A stretch of DNA of 64,000 nt, from assembly GCF_017447225.1 (NCBI RefSeq), contig NZ_JAFSNZ010000060.1, positions 1-64,000 of the forward strand. The letters run 5' to 3'. The notes under the pieces were generated by a model. It saw only the letters and a list, made by a program, of their open reading frames with translations. It made no database searches and had not been told where the DNA came from. The translations under genes and the position numbers were made by a program. How positions within the stretch are numbered: position 1 is the first letter of the stretch; every line of letters starts with the position of its first letter. Positions 1,151-53,878 of this stretch are shown one piece after another. The DNA comes from Methanobrevibacter sp. (lineage in GTDB: Archaea > Methanobacteriota > Methanobacteria > Methanobacteriales > Methanobacteriaceae).

Positions 1151-3448
1151 TTATTCGACTTTAATAGTGTTTGCAATAGCATATCCATTAAAACTTGACG
1201 TTATGATGTAATTTCCCGGCATCAGGTTAATATTGAGACTTGCAATACCGCTGGCATTTGTTGTGCGAGTATAGAAAACACCGTTAATATTAAATCCGAC
1301 GTCCTGATTTGGATAAGCCAATCCATTACCATCCAACAGTCTGACATGGAATTGATCCGGAGTGCCATAATCTTTAACCAAATCCTCAGCAGAGAGCACA
1401 TCTAAAACAGTGATATTATTGGATACTGCAAATCCTCCGGATTCACATGTGATGATGTAACTGCCCGGCCTCAAGTTAATATTGAGTTTGGCCATGCCTG
1501 TGGAATTTGTAAAGCGAGTGTATAAAACACCGTTGATGTTGAATGTGACGCTTACGTTTTCACCGGCAGCTTTTCCGTCATCACCAATTATTTGAACGCA
1601 ATATTGGGAGTCATTCTTATAATATTTGACCAAATCCCTGTTCTGCGTAATTTTAGGAAGCACAGTGATGTTATTTGAAAAATATTGGCCTGTGACATTA
1701 TTGATTGCTGTGATTATGTAATCTCCCTGATTCAAGTTAATGTTCAATCTTGCAAGACCGTTTTCATCAACCTTACGCTCATACATCACACCGTTGATGT
1801 TGAACAAGACAGTAGTTCCTTTATCCAGGAAGTTACCTTCACTATCACGGAAAGTGGCATAATATTGGGACTCATTTCTGAAGGTTTTAACCAAATCTGT
1901 TCCGTTGACAGTGTCATTGACAGTTATAGTGGAATTGACAGAATACCAACCGTAAGTTGTTGTAGCTCCATAAATTCCGCTGTTTAAATTAACGGCAAGT
2001 GAAGCAATACCTTTTTCATCAGTCGTTTTAGTGTAATTCTTACCGTTCAGGTTTATCACAACAGTAGCATTGCTGATTGGATTTGACTCATAATCAGTCA
2101 GATTGACGACTAATTTCTCACTTCCACCATAATATTTAGTTACATCCTCAACAGTCAGGATAACAGGATTGTCGCTTACGATTATCTCAACAGCATTATT
2201 CTCATTATCAGCACTGGCAATTAGATAATATTTGCCTTCTTTGGAAGATGAGAATGACTCATCAGTCAGGTTTCCGCCGGATGATGAAATTGTGATATTT
2301 CTTTTAGGCATTGTGGCCTCAACATCACCAAGATAAAAAGCGTATGCATAACCTGTTGACTCGTTTGTCTTTAATGATGTTGAGTCAACTGTCAGGTTCA
2401 AAGTGATTATTGAGGAAGGAGCATCCAAACGTTTGACAACATTTGACCAGTCAGGAGAGTTTTTACCCCACCAGTTACCGTCGATTGTTGAATTGAAGTA
2501 CTGTTCGAAGTAATCGCTTAAAAATACAGTGTCACGACTGTTGTTTACAAAGACATTGTTATAGACATCACCGACACAGCCTTCAAGATAAATAGCTCCG
2601 CCTTCTTTTGCATAATTGTTAATGAAAACATTGTTGAAAATGGTCATGTTGGCATATGCTGTGTGCATTCTTCCCTTACAGATATGGATTGCACCTCCGC
2701 AGTCACGGGCAGAATTATTGACAAATAGACATTCGCTTACATTTATAGTTCCGATCCAGTGATAGATTGCACCGCCAAAACTGCCGTCATGTTCATCATG
2801 TGCGGAGTTGTTGATGAACGTTGAATTGAACACTGTAAGAATACCGCCATAGTTTCTTACGGCACCACCATCTCTGTAAGCATGATTAGCTATGAAAGTA
2901 CAATCAGTAATAGTTCCGGTTCCCTTATTTGAGACGGCACCACCATCGATTCTGGTTACATCATTTTCAACGAATAAACAGGAATCTATATCAATGGTAG
3001 CTCCCCTTATGCTTTCAACACAGCACGCATCTTCAGCATAATTATTGTAAAAGCTCAAGTTATACATGTTTAAATCCTTGTTGTTCCATATTACAGTATC
3101 TGTACAATTAACAAATTTTAAACCAGACAATGTGACATTATTGGCGTTGATTGTAAAAATTCGGGACCCTGTGAAAATCGCATTGCCATTCGCCTTAATG
3201 AGCAAATCATTGGAAGAAATGACAAGATTAGTGTTGTTAGAACCCTTATATATACCATCGTTAATTAGAATGGTATCATTATTACCGCTGTTGCTTAACG
3301 CCAGATTAAGATTATTATATGGGTCATCAATTGTACCTTGACCATCTATTGTTGTATTCATACCTACATAATATGTTTCATTATTTGCAGAAACTATAGG
3401 CATCATAATTAAAAAAACAAATAAAAGTAGTACAAATATCCTTTTCAT
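1151..3448 (-). CDS. Adhesin-like secreted protein, beta-helix plus four Ig-like repeats
   Basis: A 765-aa secreted surface protein. Residues 1-21 form a signal peptide (MKRIFVLLLF..VSA). Residues about 95-330 are a right-handed beta-helix with repeated GGAxxN, FxNN and FINN rungs. From about 434 there are four Ig-like repeats of roughly 80 residues (434-511, 518-598, 605-682, 689-765), each with D(L/V)xKxY at the start, NINGVxYxR in the middle and LNINLxPGxYIIT near the end. The protein stops exactly at the end of the last repeat with no membrane anchor or sorting motif, so the repeats themselves may bind the pseudomurein wall. Cysteines cluster only in the helix. The same repeat family occurs in the protein at 50864-53878. 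The ligand is unknown. Confidence 0.85.
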   Translation of the reverse strand: MKRIFVLLLFVFLIMMPIVSANNETYYVGMNTTIDGQGTIDDPYNNLNLALSNSGNNDTILINDGIYKGSNNTNLVISSNDLLIKANGNAIFTGSRIFTINANNVTLSGLKFVNCTDTVIWNNKDLNMYNLSFYNNYAEDACCVESIRGATIDIDSCLFVENDVTRIDGGAVSNKGTGTITDCTFIANHAYRDGGAVRNYGGILTVFNSTFINNSAHDEHDGSFGGAIYHWIGTINVSECLFVNNSARDCGGAIHICKGRMHTAYANMTIFNNVFINNYAKEGGAIYLEGCVGDVYNNVFVNNSRDTVFLSDYFEQYFNSTIDGNWWGKNSPDWSNVVKRLDAPSSIITLNLTVDSTSLKTNESTGYAYAFYLGDVEATMPKRNITISSSGGNLTDESFSSSKEGKYYLIASADNENNAVEIIVSDNPVILTVEDVTKYYGGSEKLVVNLTDYESNPISNATVVINLNGKNYTKTTDEKGIASLAVNLNSGIYGATTTYGWYSVNSTITVNDTVNGTDLVKTFRNESQYYATFRDSEGNFLDKGTTVLFNINGVMYERKVDENGLARLNINLNQGDYIITAINNVTGQYFSNNITVLPKITQNRDLVKYYKNDSQYCVQIIGDDGKAAGENVSVTFNINGVLYTRFTNSTGMAKLNINLRPGSYIITCESGGFAVSNNITVLDVLSAEDLVKDYGTPDQFHVRLLDGNGLAYPNQDVGFNINGVFYTRTTNASGIASLNINLMPGNYIITSSFNGYAIANTIKVE

Positions 3449-3532
3449 AACATAACCTCTGAATTATGATATGAAATAATATTTATTTCAAATGACTTAT
3501 AAAAATAGTGAAAAAATAAGGAGAAAAGAGAA

Positions 3533-4033
3533 TTATTTTTCTAAAGCTTCAATTCTCTTATCGATATCATTGAGTTTTTCTTCAGTTGCTTGCTGGAATT
3601 CCTGAGAGGATTTCTTGAATTCATGGTAATCCTTATCCAAAGCATCAACAGAACTGGCAGTTTCTTTGAATTTAGCTTCAAGGTCTTCCAAATCATCAGT
3701 AGTGGCAAGAGCCCAGTCTTTAATCAGTTGGTCGCTTTTCTCATCTAGAAATGCATCAAGCTTATTGGAAAATGCATCTGTACTGATACCTGTGTCGATA
3801 TCGCTTAATTTGATTTTGATTCTGTCAGTCATGGAATTGGATTCTTTTTCTTTTTTCAAATCTGCATATTCTGCATTGTTGTTGAGCACTTCACCCATAT
3901 GGGCATCAGCGCTTGTAGGAACATAACTTTTGATTTTTTCCATTGTTTTCGGACTGTTCAAAAGATAATAATAAACCAATACAACAATAGCTATTATTAA
4001 AATAATTACTGCAACAGCTTCAACAGCATCCAT
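3533..4033 (-). CDS. Membrane-anchored coiled-coil protein, 166 aa
   Basis: An N-terminal hydrophobic helix (about residues 5-26) is followed by a charged, mostly helical region ending in a heptad-rich coiled coil (about 105-166, finishing with KLNDIDKRIEALEK). No enzyme motif is visible. It lies 8 nt downstream of a second single-TM coiled-coil gene (4042-4446) on the same strand, so the two are probably co-transcribed and may pair. The gene is one of a divergent set facing methionine aminopeptidase. The function is unknown; a structural or scaffolding role at the membrane is inference. Confidence 0.75.
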   Translation of the reverse strand: MDAVEAVAVIILIIAIVVLVYYYLLNSPKTMEKIKSYVPTSADAHMGEVLNNNAEYADLKKEKESNSMTDRIKIKLSDIDTGISTDAFSNKLDAFLDEKSDQLIKDWALATTDDLEDLEAKFKETASSVDALDKDYHEFKKSSQEFQQATEEKLNDIDKRIEALEK

Positions 4034-4041
4034 AATAACAC

Positions 4042-4446
4042 CTATTTATTCCTATTGAGTTTTTTCTCTTTAGCTTCGATTTCCTTAAGCATTTTCTCTA
4101 ATTTCTTTTGCTCAGTTTGTGCTTCTAATCTTGCTAATCTTTCGTTAATCTCACTATGCAAGTAACCGATTTCATTTCTTACATCAGTAGTTGATTGTCT
4201 GATTGCCTTGAGAGAATCCTGTTGATCTTGAGGTAATGGGATTGGATTATCCATTAATCTTTTAGATTCAATATCTTTTTCAACCATAGACATTTTTTTA
4301 AGTTGGATTTCTTTTTCAAGCATTTCAACAGATGTTTTTGCTTGAGCAACTCTTCTCCATTGAGCAACAACAATAATAACAACTAATGCAACAATAACCA
4401 ATATAATTAATAAGAACATTTGATCAGGAATTGTTGGAATATCCAT
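4042..4446 (-). CDS. Membrane-anchored coiled-coil protein, 134 aa
   Basis: I chose the ATG at 4446 (MDIPTIPDQ) because GGAGGTAA sits just upstream; a longer frame reaches 4467. Residues about 9-29 form one strongly hydrophobic helix. After WRRVAQ the rest is charged and helical with heptads (RNEIGYLHSEINERLARLEA) and a Lys/Glu-rich tail. It is probably an N-in or N-out single-pass protein with a cytoplasmic coiled coil. It is the first gene of a pair with 3533-4033 and is divergent from map with about 80 nt between starts. No known family was recognised. Confidence 0.75.
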   Translation of the reverse strand: MDIPTIPDQMFLLIILVIVALVVIIVVAQWRRVAQAKTSVEMLEKEIQLKKMSMVEKDIESKRLMDNPIPLPQDQQDSLKAIRQSTTDVRNEIGYLHSEINERLARLEAQTEQKKLEKMLKEIEAKEKKLNRNK

Positions 4447-4527
4447 AAATTTACCTCCAATATTCATTTAGATATAATAAATATTTAAACCTTATTGAAT
4501 ATAACATTTATTATTAAAGTGATTATT

Positions 4528-5445
4528 ATGATTGATTCTTATATAAAAGCTGGAAAAATTGTTTCAAAAATACGTACAGATGCATCAAAAATGATAAAGG
4601 AAGGATGCCTGGTTCTGGATTTGGTTGAATACGTTGAAGGAGAAATCTTAAAACAGGACGCAGACATTGCATTTCCATGTAACGTTTCAATTAACGAAGT
4701 TGCAGCGCACTACACTTCTCCAGCAAATGATAAAACAGTTATTCATGCAGGGGATTTGGTTAAACTGGATTTGGGAGCTATGGTAAACGGATACATTGCA
4801 GATTCTGCAGTGACCGTGATGGCTGAAGGAAACATAGAAGAGAGATTCACTCAGGACCAGATCAATGAAAACCGGGAACTCATCGAAGCTTCAGCGGCAG
4901 GACTTGAAGCTGCAATTGCAACTGTTAGAGCTGGAGTTGAACTTAACAAAATCGGCGCTGCAGTACATGAGGCAATAAGCGATTTTGACTTTAACCCTGT
5001 ATTCAACCTGATGGGACACAGTCTGGAGCAAAACAATTTACATGCAGGAATTTCCATACCGAATTATGACAATAACGACACTTTCAAATTGGATGAAGGA
5101 CAGGCCATAGCTATCGAGCCATTTGCAACAACAGGCGTGGGCCATGTCAATGATGGACCGGGACACTATATTTTCTCATATATGGCAAACAAGCCATTCA
5201 GAATGAAATCCACACAGAAAGTCTTAAACTACATTCAAAAAAATAACCCATACGTTCCATTTTCAGGAAGATGGATTACCGACGAATTTGGAGAAAGACG
5301 TGGTGGAATTGCATTAAAACAGCTTTCAGAAGCAATGGCAATCTATCCATATGCACCACTTAAAGAAAAAAAGGATTGTTTTGTTTCTCAAAAGGAACAT
5401 ACTGTAATTGTAGAAAAAGAAGGTTGTACAGTTACAACATTATAG
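4528..5445 (+). CDS. map: Methionine aminopeptidase, type II
   Basis: Removes the initiator methionine from nascent proteins. The archaeal/eukaryotic type II pita-bread fold is complete at 305 aa. Expected dimetal ligands are present: D81 (KLDLGA), D92 (IADSAV), H164 (MGHSLEQ), E197 (IEPFAT) and E290 (SQKEHT), with H61 and H172 also conserved. I start at ATG 4528 (MIDSYIKAGKI), preceded by GTGAT; an in-frame ATG at 4495 would add 11 hydrophobic residues not typical of the family. It is monocistronic, with a hairpin terminator right after the stop. Confidence 0.93.
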   Translation: MIDSYIKAGKIVSKIRTDASKMIKEGCLVLDLVEYVEGEILKQDADIAFPCNVSINEVAAHYTSPANDKTVIHAGDLVKLDLGAMVNGYIADSAVTVMAEGNIEERFTQDQINENRELIEASAAGLEAAIATVRAGVELNKIGAAVHEAISDFDFNPVFNLMGHSLEQNNLHAGISIPNYDNNDTFKLDEGQAIAIEPFATTGVGHVNDGPGHYIFSYMANKPFRMKSTQKVLNYIQKNNPYVPFSGRWITDEFGERRGGIALKQLSEAMAIYPYAPLKEKKDCFVSQKEHTVIVEKEGCTVTTL

Positions 5446-5475
5446 AAGAGTTAACTCTCTTCATTACTTATTTTT
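5445..5475 (+). terminator. Hairpin terminator after map
   Basis: The stop codon is followed by an inverted repeat (GAAGAG..CTCTTC around AGTTAACT) and a T-rich tract. It lies between the convergent map and frhB genes and could serve both strands, as the following A-run is T-rich on the minus strand. Confidence 0.6.
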
Positions 5476-5502
5476 TAAAAAAAAAAGAAAAAAGAAAGAA
5501 GA

Positions 5503-6354
5503 TTAGTAGATTGTAGGGATACGTACACCCATTTTTGCTCTTCTTTCACGTTCTGCGGTATTTTTGTCTTTTTTACCTTTAGCTAATTTTTCAAGTAAAG
5601 GAAGACCTGGTTTTACATCGTCCATTGGTTTGGTTTCGATTAAACCTGCGTCAACAGCAGCTTTAAATACTGATTCACCATCATCAGTTCTGGTTAAAAC
5701 AGTAGACCAACCGTCAGGTGAACCTACAGAACCAGTAGATACATCAGCCCATTCAGCAACGTAATCTTGACATACGTTACATCCGGATTGTTCGTATCCG
5801 TGAGTTTCTTTAATAGCTAATCCTTTGTCTTCACCATCTTTGGTTAACCAGAATTTACCTTTACCGATGTCCATTTTACTAGCTTCGGTTAAGTCATCAA
5901 ATCCTAATTTAGCAGTTGCGAAAGTGTCAAGAGAAGCCATAGGGAAGTTTTCCATACAGTAGATACCGATGATTAATTTTACTTTATCAGCGACAAATCT
6001 TGTGAATGGATAAGCTTTAGCTTTTCTTAAACCTTGTACTTGACATGGAGTTGCGACTACACCGACTTTTTCAAGACCGTATTGACGTGTTGCTTCTTTT
6101 AAAACAGATAAGGTTGGGGACATTGAGTATTTGGTTCCTGCAGCTGCAATTACTTCATCGGATGAAGTTACAACAGTAGGAGTAGGCCTCCAATCTTCAT
6201 CAGGAGTTCCAGCAACTACAGCACCTTCAATGATTCCCTCATCGAGTGCGTAACAGAGTAATGCTGAAACAATTCCTCTGTCTTGTGATACATCTAATAT
6301 TTTTTGTTCAGTAGATCTTGCAGATAATGCTTCTTTATAAGTACCTAATGGCAT
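5503..6354 (-). CDS. frhB: F420-reducing [NiFe] hydrogenase, beta subunit
   Basis: FrhB is the FAD- and [4Fe-4S]-containing subunit that passes electrons from the hydrogenase to coenzyme F420. The 283-aa length is typical. Visible features are the [10 protein letters not shown] start region, the [12 protein letters not shown] motif, [10 protein letters not shown], and [20 protein letters not shown], which supply cluster cysteines and the flavin pocket. It is the last gene of frhADGB, 11 nt after frhG. The C-terminal tail ends in a basic stretch ([13 protein letters not shown]). Confidence 0.95.
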
Positions 6355-6365
6355 ATCTAATCCTC

Positions 6366-7220
6366 CTAAAGTCCTGTTTCCTTTTTAATTCTTCCTTCAG
6401 GTAACCAAGATCTTGGACACATTACGTAACAAGTTCCACACTTAATACATCTGTCTCTGTCACAGCTAGGTCTACCTTCAGAATAGCCCATTGCCCTTGT
6501 TGGACAAGCTAGACCACAAGTTCCACATCCAGAACATAATCCTTGGCGAATTACGTTGGTTAATACGTCACAACCACATCCAGCATTGCATGCTGCTAAA
6601 TCCATAGCAGGTTTTAAGTAATCTAAATCACCTTCACATACTGCTACAACGGTTTTTGCAATCATTTCAGGAGCTACTGGACAACCAGGAAGTGCTGCAT
6701 CAACTTTAACTAATGAACTAATAGGTAAGAATGCTTCGTGTTTTGGTTGTGCTTGTTGACCACCACGTGCGTAGGTAGTGAAACAACCGGTTACAGCACA
6801 GGAACCAAATGCAACGATTAAGCCTGATTTTTCTCTTGCCATTAAAAGTTCTTGAACACTGTGTTCGTCTTGTAAACAAACAGATCCTTCAATTAAACAT
6901 ACGTCCATTTCAGGCATTTCTTCAGCGAAAGTACCATGTACCCATTTGTCAACTAAGGTTTGTCCGTATACAATATCAACCATATCGGTTAAAACGGTAG
7001 CTAAAATGTCGTAATTTTCAGTTAAAGACATTGCATCACCAGTACAACCACTTAAGTGAATGTAACCAATACGAGGTTTTGCTGAAGCAGCTTTGGTTTC
7101 TGCAGGAGCTTCTGCTTTAACTTCTTCTTTAACAGGAGCAGCTTCAACTTTTTTTTCTACTTTTGGTGTTTCTGCTGGTTCAGAAGAACCACCGAAAGCT
7201 TTTTTCAATTTATCAAACAT
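6366..7220 (-). CDS. frhG: F420-reducing [NiFe] hydrogenase, gamma subunit
   Basis: The small, electron-transferring subunit with three [4Fe-4S] clusters. The core begins at [15 protein letters not shown] (about residue 48) and carries the proximal-cluster cysteines ([23 protein letters not shown]). The C-terminal ferredoxin part has [15 protein letters not shown] and [15 protein letters not shown]. The odd feature is an N-terminal extension of about 47 residues: a short basic amphipathic start ([11 protein letters not shown]) and an Ala/Glu/Lys/Pro linker that, as far as I recall, is absent from characterised FrhG. frhD and frhG overlap by one base (TAATG). Confidence 0.94.
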
Positions 7221-45840: not shown

Positions 45841-47946
45841 ATGAACATCAATAACTTAATCAAATCGGCAGTAGTTATTATTTTGATTGCAATAGCTAAC
45901 ATAGGAACCATTATTGCAGCTTCAATGATAAATGATACAATCATACTAGGAAATTGGTATAATGCGATTATCATTGCAATTGGAGTTACTATAGCCAACA
46001 TCATATTCTGGCCGATACTGGTGAAATATTTAATGAAGTTTATTGTATGGACATTTGGAATTGGTGCGCTGATTATTAACTCAATAATTTTTTATGGAGT
46101 TTCATGCCTGATTCCTGGAGTTTCACTTAGTGCAAGTGATGCATTTCTGGTACCACTTGCAATGGCAATTGCTACTACAATTATTTCAAACATAACGGAT
46201 GTTGACTATTATGACACATACATAACCCGTGTGTCAGATTACGTTTCAAGAGAAAAACCCCTCTATAAACGAAGATTTCCTGGTCTGATAATGCTTGAAA
46301 TAGACGGATTATCAATTGATATTTTAAAAGAGGCTATTGATAAAAACATGATGCCTACACTTAAAAGATGGATTGAATCCGATAGCTACACCTTAAAAGG
46401 CTGGGAAACGGACTTGTCATCACAGACAGGTGCCTGTCAGGCAGGGATATTACATGGAAACAATGAGAACATTGTAGCTTACAGGTGGGTTGAAAAAGAG
46501 AATGACAATCAGATAATGATTTCCGGGAAATTGGCTCATGCTCCGATAATTGAAGAGAGAATATCTGACGGAAACGGGCTTTTATGCGATAACGGAACAA
46601 GCATTACAAACATGTTTACTGGAGATAGCCCTAATCCCATACTTACATCATCCAGATTTAAGTTTATGACAAAAAGGTATAATCAATCATTGAATGTGGT
46701 ATTTCTGGAGGCATATTCATTCCAAAGAGTTATTGTTCTGTTTTTATGGGAGATATTGGTTGAAGTGAAATCCCAAATAATGCACAGATTAAAGAATATT
46801 CAGCCCAGACTTAGGAGAAACATTGTTTATGCGACAATAAGGTCCGGAGCGAATGTTCTTTTACGTGAAGTAGCTACGGAAACATTAATCGGAGACATGC
46901 TTAAAGGAGATATCAACAGTGCATATGCTAGTTATGTGGGCTACGATGAAGTTGCACACCACTCAGGAATTAGGGACGATGATGTGTGGAATGTGCTTAA
47001 ACAAATTGATTTACAATTTAAAAGGCTTGAAAAGGCTCAAAAAAGCTGTGAGAGGAACTATGAGTTTGTAGTTTTATCCGACCATGGCCAAGGGAATGGT
47101 GCAACATTCAAACAAAGATACGGCATAACTCTCGCAGATTATGTGAGAAGGCTTCTGCCGGATGACATGAAAATTTATGATAAAAATCAATTTATTTCAG
47201 ACCACTTTAGAGATGCATACATTCCGGAAAACAAGCAAATTGAAAGCATTATAGGAAAAGTAGATGACATAAAAGAGACAGAATTCTTTTCAGATACAAT
47301 TGAAACTTTAAAAGATAAAAGCCCTGATTTTATAAACATAGAACGTGTAGAAGAGATAACATCAAAGTATAAAAATAATTTGGATTACATTAAAAGACAT
47401 GAAAGTAAGGAACAAACCACTAAAAAAGCTGAAGATTCTGAGTTGATTGTTCTGGGTTCTGGGAATTTAGGTCTGATTTATCTAACGCAATGGCAAAAAA
47501 GATTGAATTACGAAGAAATAGTAATGCTGTTTCCAAATCTAATTCCTGGCCTTGTAAAACATTCCGGAATAGGATTTATATTAGTGGAATCATTCACCGA
47601 TGGTCCGATGGTTATCGGTGCAGATGGAATATATTACCTTAACAATGATAAAATAGAAGGGAAAAATCCATTGGAAAACTTTGGAAAAAATGCTGCAATG
47701 CATCTTAAAAGACATAATAAGTTTGAGCATATGCCGGATATTTTAGTTAATAGCTTTTATGATCCTGAAACTGAAGAGATATGTGCATTTGAAGAATTAA
47801 TCGGTAGTCATGGAGGGCTTGGAGGAAGCCAAACAAGACCATTTATCCTATATCCATCAAATTGGGAAGATCCAGGTGAATTGGTTGGTGCAAAATCAAT
47901 TTATGATTTCTTAAAAAAAGAAATGAATGAATTAAAGGACTCTTGA
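45841..47946 (+). CDS. Holin-like membrane domain fused to a phosphodiesterase domain
   Basis: A 701-aa protein. Residues about 7-115 form four hydrophobic helices of the phage-holin-4/mycobacterial type. From residue 148 an alkaline phosphatase-like (type I phosphodiesterase/sulfatase fold) domain begins: LIMLEIDGLS supplies D155, DLSSQTGACQAG the nucleophile region near T196, YVGYDEVAHHSG a metal site, and VVLSDHGQG the D/H pair. The membrane part likely anchors the enzyme. The ATG directly abuts the metallophosphoesterase stop. It probably hydrolyses phosphodiesters or sugar phosphates at the membrane; the substrate is unknown. The 3' end overlaps the convergent sirtuin gene by 15 nt. Confidence 0.85.
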   Translation: MNINNLIKSAVVIILIAIANIGTIIAASMINDTIILGNWYNAIIIAIGVTIANIIFWPILVKYLMKFIVWTFGIGALIINSIIFYGVSCLIPGVSLSASDAFLVPLAMAIATTIISNITDVDYYDTYITRVSDYVSREKPLYKRRFPGLIMLEIDGLSIDILKEAIDKNMMPTLKRWIESDSYTLKGWETDLSSQTGACQAGILHGNNENIVAYRWVEKENDNQIMISGKLAHAPIIEERISDGNGLLCDNGTSITNMFTGDSPNPILTSSRFKFMTKRYNQSLNVVFLEAYSFQRVIVLFLWEILVEVKSQIMHRLKNIQPRLRRNIVYATIRSGANVLLREVATETLIGDMLKGDINSAYASYVGYDEVAHHSGIRDDDVWNVLKQIDLQFKRLEKAQKSCERNYEFVVLSDHGQGNGATFKQRYGITLADYVRRLLPDDMKIYDKNQFISDHFRDAYIPENKQIESIIGKVDDIKETEFFSDTIETLKDKSPDFINIERVEEITSKYKNNLDYIKRHESKEQTTKKAEDSELIVLGSGNLGLIYLTQWQKRLNYEEIVMLFPNLIPGLVKHSGIGFILVESFTDGPMVIGADGIYYLNNDKIEGKNPLENFGKNAAMHLKRHNKFEHMPDILVNSFYDPETEEICAFEELIGSHGGLGGSQTRPFILYPSNWEDPGELVGAKSIYDFLKKEMNELKDS

Positions 47947-48783
47947 AATCCAATAATCCAATATTTCTTCAACATTTTCATCGAAACTTATTGTTTTAGA
48001 TTCATTTTCTTTTATAGCTCCAGCATAATCCTTATTTAATCTGATTAATGTCGCATTTGGACTATCATGAGTCATTTGTTCAAACGGATAACGGATAATG
48101 ACCGGAGTATTGAAACCAACACCAATTTCTAAAAATACAACATTTTTATCGCCGATTTTATTTATAAAGTCCATATAACGTTGTCTGGCTTCATGCCATT
48201 TTTCATCCTCTACGAAAAGATTATCTTTTCTAAGATTTGTTTCCATTTCAGCCCCGCAAACAGGACATTTAGGAACCAGATCTGATGGGATTTTACAGTC
48301 AACAGTCTTTTCAACCATTTCCTTTATTAATTCCTCATCATCATACAGTTTGTCATGGCATGCTTCACTGCATTGCAGAAGACCATAATCTCCCTGTGTT
48401 GCAAATATTCTTTCATCCTCAAATCCGTTAATCCAAAACTGATGTTCCACATTTGTCGTTAAAACGAAATAATCCTTATTTTCAACCAGTTTTAATAATT
48501 TCTGATATACATCTGTTTCACCAACACCAAATCTGTTAACATTGATATGTCTTGCCCAATAAGCCCATTTCTCTTCCGAGGTCTTGAAAGGATAAAATCC
48601 TGAGGAATACATGTCCCTCATTGAATATTTTTCAATGAAATCGGCAAAATTATCAGTGAAACGCTTACCTGCATACTCAATTCCTGCTGCAGTTGACAAA
48701 CCTGCACCAGCCCCTATAACTACAAAATCCGCATCATTAATTTTTTCAATAGCTTTATCTAATCTTAACACAAAACGATCCAT
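47932..48783 (-). CDS. SirTM-type sirtuin (protein ADP-ribosyltransferase candidate)
   Basis: A 283-aa Sir2-fold protein. NAD-binding GAGAGLSTAAGI (24-35), TTNVEHQF (109-116) and GVGFNTP (221-227) are seen. A zinc set is formed by C138 and C142 (QCSEACH) and C173/C176 (CPVC). The catalytic His of deacetylating sirtuins is replaced by Gln130 in TQGDYGLLQC, a hallmark of SirTM sirtuins, which ADP-ribosylate lipoylated carrier proteins in staphylococci and streptococci. Start ATG 48783 follows GGTGATTA. It begins one base after the macrodomain gene ends. Confidence 0.85.
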   Translation of the reverse strand: MDRFVLRLDKAIEKINDADFVVIGAGAGLSTAAGIEYAGKRFTDNFADFIEKYSMRDMYSSGFYPFKTSEEKWAYWARHINVNRFGVGETDVYQKLLKLVENKDYFVLTTNVEHQFWINGFEDERIFATQGDYGLLQCSEACHDKLYDDEELIKEMVEKTVDCKIPSDLVPKCPVCGAEMETNLRKDNLFVEDEKWHEARQRYMDFINKIGDKNVVFLEIGVGFNTPVIIRYPFEQMTHDSPNATLIRLNKDYAGAIKENESKTISFDENVEEILDYWISRVL

Positions 48784-48784
48784 T

Positions 48785-49567
48785 TTAATCACCAAATAAC
48801 AAATTTTTATATATCAAATAATCATCATCACCAAATACATTAAATATTACATGCTCCAAAGAGCTTTCATTGAAATTCAAGTATTCATTTACAGTTCCAA
48901 TGGCAATTTCAGCTGCTTTTTCTTTAGGGAAATTAAAAACACCTGTGGAAATACAGCAAAAAGCAATTGATTTTAAATTATGGTAGCTAGCTATCTCCAA
49001 ACATGATTTGTAACAGCTGGCAAGTCTTTTACAGTCCAAATCATCCGGTTTTGAATTTGAAGCAATCGCCGGACCGACAGTGTGAATTACATGTTTGGAA
49101 GGCAAGTTATAAGCATCAGTGATTTTTGCTTTTCCTATATCCTCATCCCTGTTTTGAGCTTTCATGATTTTTTCACATTCAAGCCTCAATTGGATACCGC
49201 TAGCTGAATGGATAACATTGTCAATACAGTTATGCATTGGTATAAAACAGCCCAACAATTTGGAGTTGGCGGCATTGACAATTGCATCTACTTTCAGCTG
49301 AGTTATATCACCCTGCCAAAGCATTAATTTACCATCAAATTCAGTAATGTCTTCCACGCCTACCAAATCTTTAGATAATGTTTCATTTGTGAGAAATTCA
49401 TCCTGAACTTCCAAAAATTCTTCGCTTATTGGGTTAGGTGGCCTTACGTTCATCAGTGAACGAAGCAGATTTCTCTTTTGAAAGTTATCATTGGGAAGTT
49501 CTATATTATCATGTCTCTCATTAATCAAATAATTTAAAAGATAGTCTAATTGCTGATTTGTATCCAT
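48785..49567 (-). CDS. Zinc-dependent macrodomain protein (protein-ADP-ribose hydrolase)
   Basis: A 260-aa macrodomain protein with an N-terminal helical extension of about 75 residues. Core motifs are [18 protein letters not shown] (85-101), [20 protein letters not shown] (104-123), and STGVFNFP. C107, H112 and C114 match the zinc-binding loop of the SirTM-associated Zn-macro class, which reverses ADP-ribosylation. It is the first gene of a two-gene unit with the SirTM-type sirtuin and is divergent from the HxlR regulator. Its likely job is removing ADP-ribose from the sirtuin's target. Confidence 0.88.
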
Positions 49568-49638
49568 TTTAATTCCTCCTTACCCTATTATATTATCAGC
49601 CCATATTTAAATGATTTTTGTAACTAAAAAGGAACTAA

Positions 49639-49654
49639 GTTACTTTAAAGTAAC
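49639..49654. promoter_or_regulatory. Perfect 16-bp palindrome between macrodomain and HxlR genes
   Basis: GTTACTTTAAAGTAAC is an exact palindrome in the 152-nt divergent gap, 66 nt from the HxlR start and 72 nt from the macrodomain start. A further GTAAC half-site is at 49620-49624. The position and symmetry suit a dimeric winged-helix regulator such as HxlR. Confidence 0.65.
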
Positions 49655-49719: not shown

Positions 49720-50097
49720 ATGTCTGACGATACAGTTTGTCCGGTAGATAGAACATTAAGCTTAATAAATAAAAAATGGAGTATTCAAATAATAAGAGAC
49801 CTCTTCTTTGGAAAAAAACATTTTAAAGAGTTTAAAGAAGGAAAAGATATAAGTAATAAAGTATTATCCAGTTGTCTGGCTGATTTAGAGGAAAATGGGC
49901 TGATAGAAAAAAGAGTCCTGAATACAAAGCCTGTAAGTACAGAATATTCATTGACCGAATATGGAAAGTCAATGAACAGAATCATCTATGAAATTGCGAT
50001 GTTTACATTGGATGATGAAAAAGACAAGGTTTACAGCGAAAAGACAAAAGAAGAAATGAAAGAAAATTTCAGACAAACATTGAAAATTGATGATTAA
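49720..50097 (+). CDS. HxlR-family transcriptional regulator
   Basis: A 125-aa winged-helix regulator of the HxlR type: CPVDRTLSLINKKWSIQIIR, FGKKHFKEFKEGKDISNKVL, LSSCLADLEENGLIEKR and the wing VSTEYSLTEYGKSM. Cys9 (TVCPVDR) sits where redox or electrophile-sensing members keep their cysteine. It is divergent from the macrodomain/sirtuin pair and one base upstream of cbiE. It probably regulates its own promoter and that pair. Confidence 0.93.
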   Translation: MSDDTVCPVDRTLSLINKKWSIQIIRDLFFGKKHFKEFKEGKDISNKVLSSCLADLEENGLIEKRVLNTKPVSTEYSLTEYGKSMNRIIYEIAMFTLDDEKDKVYSEKTKEEMKENFRQTLKIDD

Positions 50098-50746: not shown

Positions 50747-50863
50747 TGTCAGAAATTCATTTTAATAATGTTTTACTTTTTAAATTTTAAATTAAAATCT
50801 TTATAAGTCTAAAATCATAGTTTCAGTGTTAATTACTAAAAAAATTAACAGGTGAATGATACT

Positions 50864-53800
50864 ATGATTAAAAAGATAACAAGCATTGCTTTTATTTTCT
50901 TAACTATTTTTTTAATTAGCTCTGTTTCAGCAGCAGAACCGGAAAATGAAACAATGACAACACAAAATTATGGAAATGACATTCATATTGAAAGTCATGA
51001 TATAGAAATGTATTATAAAGACGGAACACGTTTTGAAACATTGCTGGAAGATGGGAACAGAAATCCCATAAGCAACGCAACGGTAACATATGGAATAAAC
51101 GGTATTGATTATTCACGCCAGACTAATGAAAACGGACTCTCATCAATTGCAATCAACTTGAATAGCGGAAAATATACTATAACAACTACTGCAAATGAAA
51201 CTTCCGTGAATAATATCATTAACGTGAAAAGTACCGTTTATTCATCAGATGTAGTAAAAATATTTAGGAATTCAACACAGTATTATGCCCTGTTTTTAGA
51301 TGAAAAGGGAGATCTGCTTAAAAATACCGACGTTAGCTTCAACATTAACGGCGTATTTTATACAAGATTAACCAATGAAAGCGGAATTGCAAAGCTAAAC
51401 ATTAATCTGAATCCGGGAAAGTATATCTTAACCGCAACAAATCCTAAAACAAGCGAAATGATAAGCAATACTATAACAGTACTTCCTTCGATTATAAACA
51501 ACAACGATGTGGTGAAATATTATAAAAACGGCACACAGTATCATGTAACAATAGTTGGAAAAGATGGAAAAATAGTAGGTTCCGGGGAAAGCGTAGAATT
51601 CAACATCAACGGAGTATTCTATTATCGCCAAACCGATGAAAAAGGAATAGTTAAACTGAATATAAATTTAGGACCTGGAGATTATATTATAACTGCACAA
51701 TATGAAGGTTATAAAGTTTCAAACAACATTAAAGTATTGCCGACCATAATAACAAGAGACATTAGGATGGAATACAGGGACGGAACAAAATTCAAAGCTT
51801 ATATCATCGACGACACGGGAAAGCCAGCAGAATATGAAAAGGTTACATTCAACATCAACGGAGTGTTCTACACCCGAACCAGCGATGAAAATGGGATTGC
51901 AAATTTAAACATAAACCTCAGAATCGGAACATACATCATCACTTCCGAATATAATGGATTGAAAACATCAAATAACATTATAATTGAAACTCCAAGTGAA
52001 AAAGAAATCATTTCAAGCAACAATTTCACATACGAAATTAAAATACCTAATTACGTGAACATAACATGTCCTTATGTTTATGACAATAGTGTTTATACTA
52101 TTGAAAGCGGAATAAACGGAATTATAAGATTAGAGAAAAATCAGCTGATAAACATCCAGATTGGACCTAAATACTACACATTTTCAACAGGTTACATGCC
52201 AGAATACAGTCCCACATATTTGGGCAGTGATTATTATCTGTTGCCATTTGACAATAGTCCTACACAACACACATATAATTTCGAAAAACTGACTGGATAT
52301 GGATTGATTTTACATAGGAGCGGAGACTACACGCATCTCATTTATAGAAACAACTGCAGTGACAATGTAGAACAGTTCGGAGCGTATATTGACAAGGGGA
52401 TAGATAAAAGTGAAATAATAAATTACATCCAAAATGGTGAAAGTATGGCAAAAGTTCAATTCCAGACCATGAGCTTTGATGAAATGGGATTGAAATACAG
52501 CCTATCAAAAATCTACGGATGCTCAATATATGACTTTGATTATAAAAGCTACAATGAGCTGACAAGAGGCAATACAGAAAAGATTAAATTTGTAAACACC
52601 AATGAGACTGTGACATTTGACTATTACGGCAAAAAAATTGTCGGATACATTAGTGAAGAAAACATTATTACCAAATTCAATGCCCCTAACTGCATAGAGT
52701 TTGAAAAAGAGGAACTGATAACCTATGGATTGAGCGAAAAATATAAACGTGACTTTGATTTGATGCAATCATTTGCCATAATCAGCAAAAAGGTAGATGA
52801 AAAAACCGTAAATGACTGGATTTCATGCGAAAATGACTATAAGACAAATGCAGGAATGCAAAGTATGTATTCAATGTTTTTAACAACACTAAATACCGCA
52901 TATCTAAGCGATAAATTAGCGGATGAATTAACAAAAGAATATGATGTCAGCTGGATGAGAAAAAACAATACTGTGCTTCTTGGATCCATGAACTGGAAAG
53001 AGACTTATCAGCATATCCTGACTCCAAACATGGGAAGGTTCATTGAAGGAGAAAATGAAAGTGAAATCATATCTTATCGCTTCGTCAACTCAATACTGCT
53101 GTCAAAAATTGAACAGCATACCTTAAAACCGATAGCTAAGGATGCGGATGAGAATATCACATCAGTGTTTGATGATGTCTTCAAATCCTTAGCATCATTT
53201 AAAGCAAGCGTCGTATATTACAACAATACAGCAATCATAAGTGACGAAGAGGGCAATTCAAGTTTTATGATTGATCTGGAAAGCGGACTGGTTACACCGT
53301 TATCTGTAAAAGATGGTTTTGCATACAAAGGCGTTACGATAACAAGAGATTGCGGACTATGCAGCATCACCAGCATGGCAAAAGCGATAATGATAAGTGT
53401 CAATAATGGCATTTTAGGAATAAATGACCTGTTAACTTATGTGGGAGACAATATACAGCCATTAACAACATTAGCATTTAAAGGAACATTATTAATAAAA
53501 GGTATTGCCGGCGCATTGCTTGGAGGTAGCTTAACAGTGGGATTAAGCGTTATTGGAACTGCAACAAGTGTTCAAAGTATTGGGGTTTATATTACTGAAA
53601 ATTATGTTGAAAACAAAGATCTCCATACAGCATATGATTATTTCACATTTACACGACCGGGATATTTCCAGAATACGAAAATTTACAATATTCCTCATGA
53701 AGACGGAAGTGTTGACTATATAGAAATCCCGATAAACAAGAACAACACCTATGACAGAGAACATGTGAAATATATAAGTAAAGGTAAAGTGAAAACATTA

Positions 53801-53878
53801 ACTAAAGAAGAAACATACCAATATTTTACAGAAGAATCCTGGAGCCCATTTAATGTTCCGCAGAAATACTGGAGATGA
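50864..53878 (+). CDS. Large secreted protein: four Ig-like repeats plus unrecognised C-terminal region
   Basis: A 1004-aa protein; ATG 50864 follows GGTGA. Residues 1-23 are a signal peptide. Four Ig-like repeats span about 46-122, 129-207, 215-293 and 299-376, each with NINGVFY-type and LNINLxPGxYI motifs. The remaining 630 residues belong to no family I know. They hold scattered cysteines (402, 498, 553, 610, 655), a DCGLCSITSMAKA motif with C830/C833, a hydrophobic stretch at about 873-905 (GIAGALLGGSLTVGLSVIG) and an aromatic C-terminus. The repeats are probably a wall-binding or stalk part and the C-terminal region the working part. Its stop overlaps a tiny membrane-protein gene (ATGA). 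Confidence 0.85.
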   Translation: MIKKITSIAFIFLTIFLISSVSAAEPENETMTTQNYGNDIHIESHDIEMYYKDGTRFETLLEDGNRNPISNATVTYGINGIDYSRQTNENGLSSIAINLNSGKYTITTTANETSVNNIINVKSTVYSSDVVKIFRNSTQYYALFLDEKGDLLKNTDVSFNINGVFYTRLTNESGIAKLNINLNPGKYILTATNPKTSEMISNTITVLPSIINNNDVVKYYKNGTQYHVTIVGKDGKIVGSGESVEFNINGVFYYRQTDEKGIVKLNINLGPGDYIITAQYEGYKVSNNIKVLPTIITRDIRMEYRDGTKFKAYIIDDTGKPAEYEKVTFNINGVFYTRTSDENGIANLNINLRIGTYIITSEYNGLKTSNNIIIETPSEKEIISSNNFTYEIKIPNYVNITCPYVYDNSVYTIESGINGIIRLEKNQLINIQIGPKYYTFSTGYMPEYSPTYLGSDYYLLPFDNSPTQHTYNFEKLTGYGLILHRSGDYTHLIYRNNCSDNVEQFGAYIDKGIDKSEIINYIQNGESMAKVQFQTMSFDEMGLKYSLSKIYGCSIYDFDYKSYNELTRGNTEKIKFVNTNETVTFDYYGKKIVGYISEENIITKFNAPNCIEFEKEELITYGLSEKYKRDFDLMQSFAIISKKVDEKTVNDWISCENDYKTNAGMQSMYSMFLTTLNTAYLSDKLADELTKEYDVSWMRKNNTVLLGSMNWKETYQHILTPNMGRFIEGENESEIISYRFVNSILLSKIEQHTLKPIAKDADENITSVFDDVFKSLASFKASVVYYNNTAIISDEEGNSSFMIDLESGLVTPLSVKDGFAYKGVTITRDCGLCSITSMAKAIMISVNNGILGINDLLTYVGDNIQPLTTLAFKGTLLIKGIAGALLGGSLTVGLSVIGTATSVQSIGVYITENYVENKDLHTAYDYFTFTRPGYFQNTKIYNIPHEDGSVDYIEIPINKNNTYDREHVKYISKGKVKTLTKEETYQYFTEESWSPFNVPQKYWR

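Follow-up and report, generated by a model that had tools for sequence, protein, structure and literature searches.

The closest described relatives of the locus analysed here are operons that pair a class M sirtuin (SirTM) with a zinc-containing macrodomain (Zn-Macro). The extended SirTM operon of Staphylococcus and Streptococcus (PMC4518038) combines this writer–eraser pair with GcvH-L, LplA2, OYE and LLM genes. In Methanobrevibacter oralis neither GcvH-L nor LplA accompanies the pair, which makes up a minimal operon, and crystal structures of its macrodomain, MorMacro, are available (8RSI, 8RSJ and 8RSK). MorMacro strips PARP1 E988Q of Asp/Glu-linked ADP-ribose and leaves the modification of S. 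pyogenes GcvH-L in place, and the same 2024 structural study gives the native target of lipoylation-free SirTM/Zn-Macro pairs as unknown (PMC11490716). The two domains also occur in the fungal Mfs1 macrodomain–SirTM fusion (8RSN), whose macrodomain, like MorMacro, cannot demodify S. pyogenes GcvH-L (SpyGcvH-L). The present analysis concerns a pair of this kind at positions 47932–49567 of a 64,000-nucleotide stretch (the window) of contig NZ_JAFSNZ010000060.1 from Methanobrevibacter sp.

The window locus shares with the extended operon the writer–eraser pair, the class M residues and an association with redox genes; unlike that operon, it lacks GcvH-L, LplA2, OYE and LLM and carries an HxlR-family regulator instead. 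With the MorMacro operon it has in common the genus, the zinc loop and the occurrence of the pair alone, without GcvH-L or LplA, and it differs from Mfs1, a single eukaryotic polypeptide, in that the pair is encoded by two archaeal genes. The enzyme class, its occurrence in archaea and the missing lipoylation genes are already published. The first-pass annotation, made from the letters of the window, had suggested a new ADP-ribosylation switch; this was overstated, as the archaeal minimal pair, its structures and its hydrolase biochemistry had been reported in PMC11490716. The new elements are the HxlR regulator, its proposed operator and a connection to the ACGX system, a peptide-maturation cassette; all three go unmentioned in the MorMacro paper and were added by the analysis of the window. 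The locus probably encodes an HxlR-controlled thiol/electrophile-stress ADP-ribosylation switch that is functionally tied to ACGX where ACGX is present. The elements of the locus are as follows.

47932–48795, minus strand: class M sirtuin (SirTM), a 287-residue open reading frame (ORF) from TTG; matches 5a3a (E 3.5e-60); Gln134/Asn115/Arg189/GVGFNTP.
48785–49567, minus strand: zinc-containing macrodomain (Zn-Macro), 260 residues; matches 8rsi (E 1.9e-113) and NF003163; C107/H112/C114.
49574–49581, minus strand: AAGGAGGA, ribosome-binding site of the macro gene, from the sequence.
49604–49619, minus strand: AAAAATCATTTAAATA, putative B recognition element (BRE)/TATA box of the macro–sirTM operon, from the alignment.
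49620–49635, minus strand: degenerate second copy of the operator (GTTCC-N6-GTTAC), directly next to the BRE, from the sequence and alignment.
49639–49654, no strand: perfect 16-bp palindrome GTTACTTTAAAGTAAC, proposed HxlR operator, from a pattern search.
49720–50097, plus strand: HxlR-family regulator, 125 residues, divergent from the pair; Pfam HxlR, synteny and alignment.

Both ORFs of the pair were found where the first-pass annotation had placed them, and alignment with SirTM and Zn-Macro showed that the class M and zinc-loop residues are kept, with no placement of the sirtuin in a deacetylase class. Judged by its residues, the ORF at 47932–48795 is a class M sirtuin, a predicted protein mono-ADP-ribosyltransferase. 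Its top match among solved structures is the S. pyogenes SirTM 5a3a (206.8 bits, residues 13–258), and its Pfam SIR2 score lies under the canonical cut-off (16.7 vs 24 bits). The likely start is an internal ATG at 48783, four codons into the ORF; the Gln130 for catalytic His that had been read from the sequence is counted from this ATG and is Gln134 of the 287-residue ORF. This residue, equivalent to Gln137 of S. pyogenes SirTM (SpySirTM), is kept in all 76 aligned homologues (33/33 methanogen and 43/43 bacterial). Asn115 (SpySirTM Asn118) is invariant in the same set, Arg189 (SpySirTM Arg192) is kept in all but one bacterial sequence, the GVGxNTP motif reads GVGFNTP, and the position of SpySirTM Asp120 is taken by Glu117, a conservative change. 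Genetic linkage to a Zn-macrodomain, a hallmark of class M sirtuins, is present, and the pair is retained across the family. In a SirTM tree with weak deep support the archaeal sequences form several groups interspersed with Firmicutes, a topology consistent with repeated transfer.

The ORF at 48785–49567 overlaps that of SirTM by 11 nucleotides and is a Zn-Macro, a predicted Asp/Glu ADP-ribosyl hydrolase. MorMacro (8rsi) matches it over the full length with 65% identity, a second solved macrodomain, 5kiv, matches with an E value of 6.4e-74, and the protein passes the NCBIfam equivalog NF003163 (protein-ADP-ribose hydrolase) with 359.6 vs 272 bits. The Cys-His-Cys zinc loop takes the place of the glycine-rich stretch, as is typical of this MacroD-type class. 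All three of its residues, noted in the first-pass annotation, are present and invariant in 33 methanogen homologues; among 39 bacterial homologues both Cys residues are invariant and the His occurs in 37. The NAAN motif corresponds to N98-A-A-N101.

No GcvH-like or lipoate-ligase gene lies near the pair, as had been observed, and a search of the whole genome (2.16 Mb, 96.65% complete) extended this result. Profile searches of the genome gave no GCV_H match and no lipoate ligase, the sole, sub-threshold match to the LplA family being the BirA gene, which scores 202 bits against TIGR00121. The one biotin/lipoyl domain in the genome belongs to pyruvate carboxylase subunit B (PycB) and is of the biotin type. 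In a set of 139 Methanobacteriaceae genomes, GCV_H matches are weak stretches that fall mostly within ORFs of ~570 residues, the size of PycB. Because the genome lacks lipoylation machinery, a lipoyl-GcvH-L target is excluded for this organism within the 96.65% completeness of the assembly, and a lipoylated target in the genome was rejected. The earlier suggestion of a different archaeal target addresses a real question, which PMC11490716 also poses.

The HxlR gene faces away from the pair across the intergenic promoter region. Its product scores 70.3 bits against the winged-helix Pfam HxlR family (PF01638), and the nearest NCBIfam model is RrpB, below its cut-off (69.2 vs 175 bits). In almost every Methanobrevibacter locus found, a divergent HxlR gene accompanies the pair; among bacteria, ~20 of 45 SirTM/Zn-Macro pairs have an HxlR gene nearby. 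This conservation in Methanobrevibacter and many bacteria is a new observation: HxlR is mentioned in neither PMC11490716 nor PMC4518038, a term search of the former gave neither HxlR nor any regulator of the operon, and a literature search for HxlR together with sirtuin and macrodomain found nothing. The protein carries an N-terminal Cys7-Pro and the recognition helix KVLSSCL. YodB and HypR are HxlR-type redox regulators with the same fold, an N-terminal Cys-Pro and a divergent orientation; the window HxlR shares these traits with the redox regulators of the RrpA/RrpB models and differs in falling under the RrpB cut-off. The Cys-Pro is kept in all but one of the aligned HxlR sequences that cover the N-terminus; CP[VI] is general among HxlR proteins. 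From the sequence we infer that the regulator may sense redox conditions.

Beside the pair, phosphodiesterase, metallophosphatase and CbiE genes are fixed neighbours, syntenic in Methanobrevibacter only and unseen beside the pairs of other lineages; they were treated as bystanders and rejected as targets. The window also holds, at 50852–53878, a gene for a 1008-residue secreted-type repeat protein that shares 34–39% identity with its counterparts in most relatives, vs ~80% for the neighbours.

The palindrome GTTACTTTAAAGTAAC lies between the HxlR and macro genes and is proposed as the HxlR operator; its chance expectation in the window at up to two mismatches is 0.07. The left half, GTTAC, is present in 27/27 aligned Methanobrevibacter sequences and the right half varies, and the BRE/TATA element AAAAATCATTTAAATA is nearly invariant among 27 sequences of this genus. 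Genome-wide pattern searches found GTTAC-N6-GTAAC three times in the 2.16-Mb genome, once at the pair and twice at an ACGX operon on another contig (G000:C115:8969-9012), where one copy is identical to GTTACTTTAAAGTAAC in all 16 letters. Across 24 Methanobrevibacter genomes, the 35 exact sites comprise 11 at the pair, nine before rSAM_ACGX and 15 elsewhere, as classified by coordinate comparison with 'at the pair' meaning within ~100 bp of the macro gene start. Bacterial HxlR–SirTM intergenic regions contain a one-mismatch copy in 6 of 13 cases, vs 0.07 expected from the flanks.

The ACGX operon on contig C115 encodes a Cys-rich 110-residue ACGSD-repeat peptide, a radical-SAM protein (the maturase), a PIG3-like quinone oxidoreductase and a PNPOx-type flavin protein with ferredoxin motifs. 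The radical-SAM protein scores 571 bits against TIGR04340 (rSAM_ACGX; cut-off 400); the peptide has many ACGSD repeats, yet scores 18.5 bits against TIGR04341 (cut-off 28). Unlike the window pair, the ACGX system that these NCBIfam models represent has no described link to ADP-ribosylation; what it shares with the pair is the identical operator at this second locus of the same genome and, in bacteria, adjacency to SirTM/Zn-Macro. C115 holds two HxlR genes, one of them divergent across the palindromes. This HxlR and that of the pair are 52.5% identical, each divergent from its own operon, with near-identical recognition helices (KVLSNCL and KVLSSCL, respectively), whereas the other HxlR proteins compared from this genome have KALSRSL or HILAETL helices and no palindrome beside their genes. 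Wherever the upstream sequence of an archaeal ACGX locus is long enough, a divergent HxlR is almost always present, and most of these loci have an exact or one-mismatch palindrome. In L136 the ACGX operon has a second HxlR gene (L136:2059-2439) at its far end, and a one-mismatch palindrome lies upstream of that gene.

In some bacterial genomes the two systems are joined physically. rSAM_ACGX occurs in 5 of 46 bacterial SirTM genomes and lies on the SirTM locus in four of these five (L029, L056, L071 and L077). A 12-kb neighbourhood is ~0.4% of such genomes by rough estimate, which places adjacency in 4/5 far above chance, although two of the four are related. The bacterial cassette proteins are 46–62% identical to those on C115 and are homologous to them. 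In L077 (Bacteroidaceae) a single contiguous co-directional run carries the ACGX cassette and then the pair:

2320–2541: ACGX peptide.
2554–3591: radical-SAM protein.
3609–4223: PNPOx/ferredoxin protein.
4226–5191: quinone oxidoreductase.
5226–5975: Zn-Macro.
5950–6912: SirTM.

The clusters of L056 (Bacteroidales) and L029 (Clostridium) are similar, with no ACG-repeat peptide seen at the L029 locus, and in L071 the ACGX and SirTM groups face each other.

Co-occurrence was examined in the 139 Methanobacteriaceae genomes. Zn-Macro exceeds the cut-off in 73 and SirTM in 75, so that about half the family has the pair. TIGR04340 gives matches in 135 genomes, mostly weak and to other radical-SAM proteins, and the analysis was restricted to the 31 that exceed the cut-off. 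SirTM is present in 28 of these 31 ACGX genomes vs 47 of the 108 without ACGX (Fisher p 3e-6, ignoring phylogeny); within the genus the counts are 17/17 vs 29/50 (Fisher p 6e-4, with the same proviso). ACGX tends to imply the pair, and the pair does not imply ACGX.

The remaining neighbours of the pair also include redox genes. A second methanogen lineage (L051, L053, L119, L123, L124 and L132) has the pair with a glutathione-peroxidase-like protein, flavodoxins and a class II amidotransferase, and other bacterial pairs adjoin aldo/keto reductase, CMD, NmrA, SDR, FMN reductase and Rrf2 genes. These neighbours fit a role in thiol/electrophile stress and have a parallel in the OYE and LLM genes of the extended operon.

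In the proposed mechanism, SirTM would use NAD+ to ADP-ribosylate a target protein on an acidic side chain, as its class membership suggests, and Zn-Macro would remove the ADP-ribose; the M. oralis homologue, which is 65% identical, has been shown to have such hydrolase activity. The divergent HxlR would control the pair via the palindromic operator between them, and would control the ACGX operon as well, responding most likely to thiol or electrophile stress, as its family and neighbours indicate. Where carried, the ACGX system would belong to the same regulon and functional module as the pair, the best candidate target would be either the ACGX peptide or an enzyme of the cassette, and ADP-ribosylation would act as an on/off switch for a thiol-carrying factor, as the comparison with the lipoyl-protein pair suggests. 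An acidic residue follows CGx (CGx[D/E]) in 168 of 179 archaeal ACGX repeats and, speculatively, offers an acceptor beside the thiol; the ACGX peptide as a SirTM substrate is likewise speculative. A broader hypothesis holds that, in methanogens and anaerobic bacteria, the lipoate-free pairs place ADP-ribose reversibly on acidic residues of the ACGX peptide or its maturase, that a thiol peptide of the RiPP type (ribosomally synthesized and post-translationally modified) takes the place of staphylococcal lipoyl-GcvH-L, and that the HxlR operator is conserved between bacteria and archaea. In this full form the hypothesis is doubtful.

Several points weigh against a functional tie between the HxlR-controlled pair and ACGX. 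The co-occurrence statistics take no account of phylogeny, and the comparison within the genus weakens at ≥90% completeness (12/12 vs 20/29, one-sided p ~0.03 by hand count). rSAM_ACGX is not over the cut-off in 47 of the 75 pair-bearing Methanobacteriaceae genomes, so the target cannot be ACGX in every case. The pair and the ACGX operon lie on different contigs in the window genome, a radical-SAM crosslink rather than ADP-ribose may be what the acidic residue of the repeat accepts, and a literature search found no published experimental work on ACGX. Alternatively, the pair may serve as a general stress-response switch that acts on some housekeeping protein, such as the HxlR regulator or PycB through its biotin-carrier domain, and be linked to ACGX only by shared stress regulation. 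This is rather unlikely; in its favour, most pair-bearing methanogens lack ACGX, PycB has the only biotin/lipoyl-type domain in the genome, and other bacterial and methanogen pairs occur with thiol peroxidase, flavodoxins, aldo/keto reductase, DUF1848, SnoaL-like and NmrA genes. Nonetheless, HxlR is the only neighbour that is constant across domains, PycB-sized matches are also found in methanogens without the pair, and both systems are adjacent in four of the five bacterial genomes that have both. The similar operators could also reflect paralogous HxlRs that each control their own neighbour, the motif being shared by common descent only and the pair and ACGX being independent systems. The identity between the two HxlRs, each divergent from its own operon, and the linkage of HxlR to pairs without ACGX are in line with this. 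It is an unlikely explanation in view of the contiguous co-directional bacterial operons with both systems (L077, L056 and L029) and of the other HxlRs in the genome, which are up to ~56% identical and have no adjoining palindrome.

Two further explanations concern the enzymes themselves. An ordinary NAD-dependent deacylase with an O-acetyl-ADP-ribose hydrolase would agree with the remote similarity of the sirtuin to CobB-type models and with some database names, 8rsi itself being deposited as an O-acetyl-ADP-ribose deacetylase. The replacement of His by Gln throughout the aligned homologues, the GVGxNTP motif and a score far below the deacylase cut-offs (21.2 vs 243 bits) make this highly improbable, and the inactivity of the SpySirTM Gln-to-His mutant (PMC4518038) also counts against it. 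The catalytic Gln was the ground for rejecting a canonical deacylase. In favour of an anti-phage Sir2-type NADase is the presence of Sir2-fold proteins in several defence systems; here neither the sirtuin nor the macrodomain has a PADLOC match, the synteny with housekeeping neighbours is fixed in Methanobrevibacter and an eraser enzyme is encoded next door, so a defence role has very little probability. The reading of the locus as an HxlR-controlled stress switch tied to ACGX, where ACGX is carried, is the one retained.

Divergent relatives of the two enzymes were also seen. In three genomes of one methanogen genus a tandem second SirTM-like gene directly follows SirTM (L117:6603-7466, L118:6509-7411 and L129:4663-5523); its product no longer has the GAG motif, the Arg or the GVGxNTP loop, has Asn in place of the Gln, and is probably a conserved pseudo-sirtuin. 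A divergent lone SirTM (L122:5164-5994, genome G047) is 38% identical, keeps the Gln and has no adjoining Zn-Macro; its neighbours are genes for a TMEM175-like channel and a PNPOx protein, and its contig also carries the ACGX operon. Full-length Zn-Macro without adjacent SirTM occurs in L126 (G120) and L128 (G124), beside CbiJ and a cation ATPase or a Csm6-type HEPN protein. DUF1848 genes are found in SirTM loci L029, L062, L063, L066, L072 and L079; those of L029, L063 and L066 share the strand of SirTM and Zn-Macro, lie beside or between the two, and may encode a further partner. DUF1848 was rejected as a common partner, since it accompanies no more than five bacterial pairs and a single archaeal one. 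In Clostridia minimal operons (L030, L031, L032, L036, L040, L043 and L047) a protein of ~263 residues, with no Pfam match and beta-lactamase-like by eye, is encoded near or just before SirTM.

Two independent genomic signals, the shared operator in archaea and the shared operons in bacteria, name ACGX as a testable partner of the SirTM/Zn-Macro pair. If the link is true, each of the two orphan systems would become a clue to the other, and gut and rumen methanogens would have a defined, conserved stress module under HxlR control.

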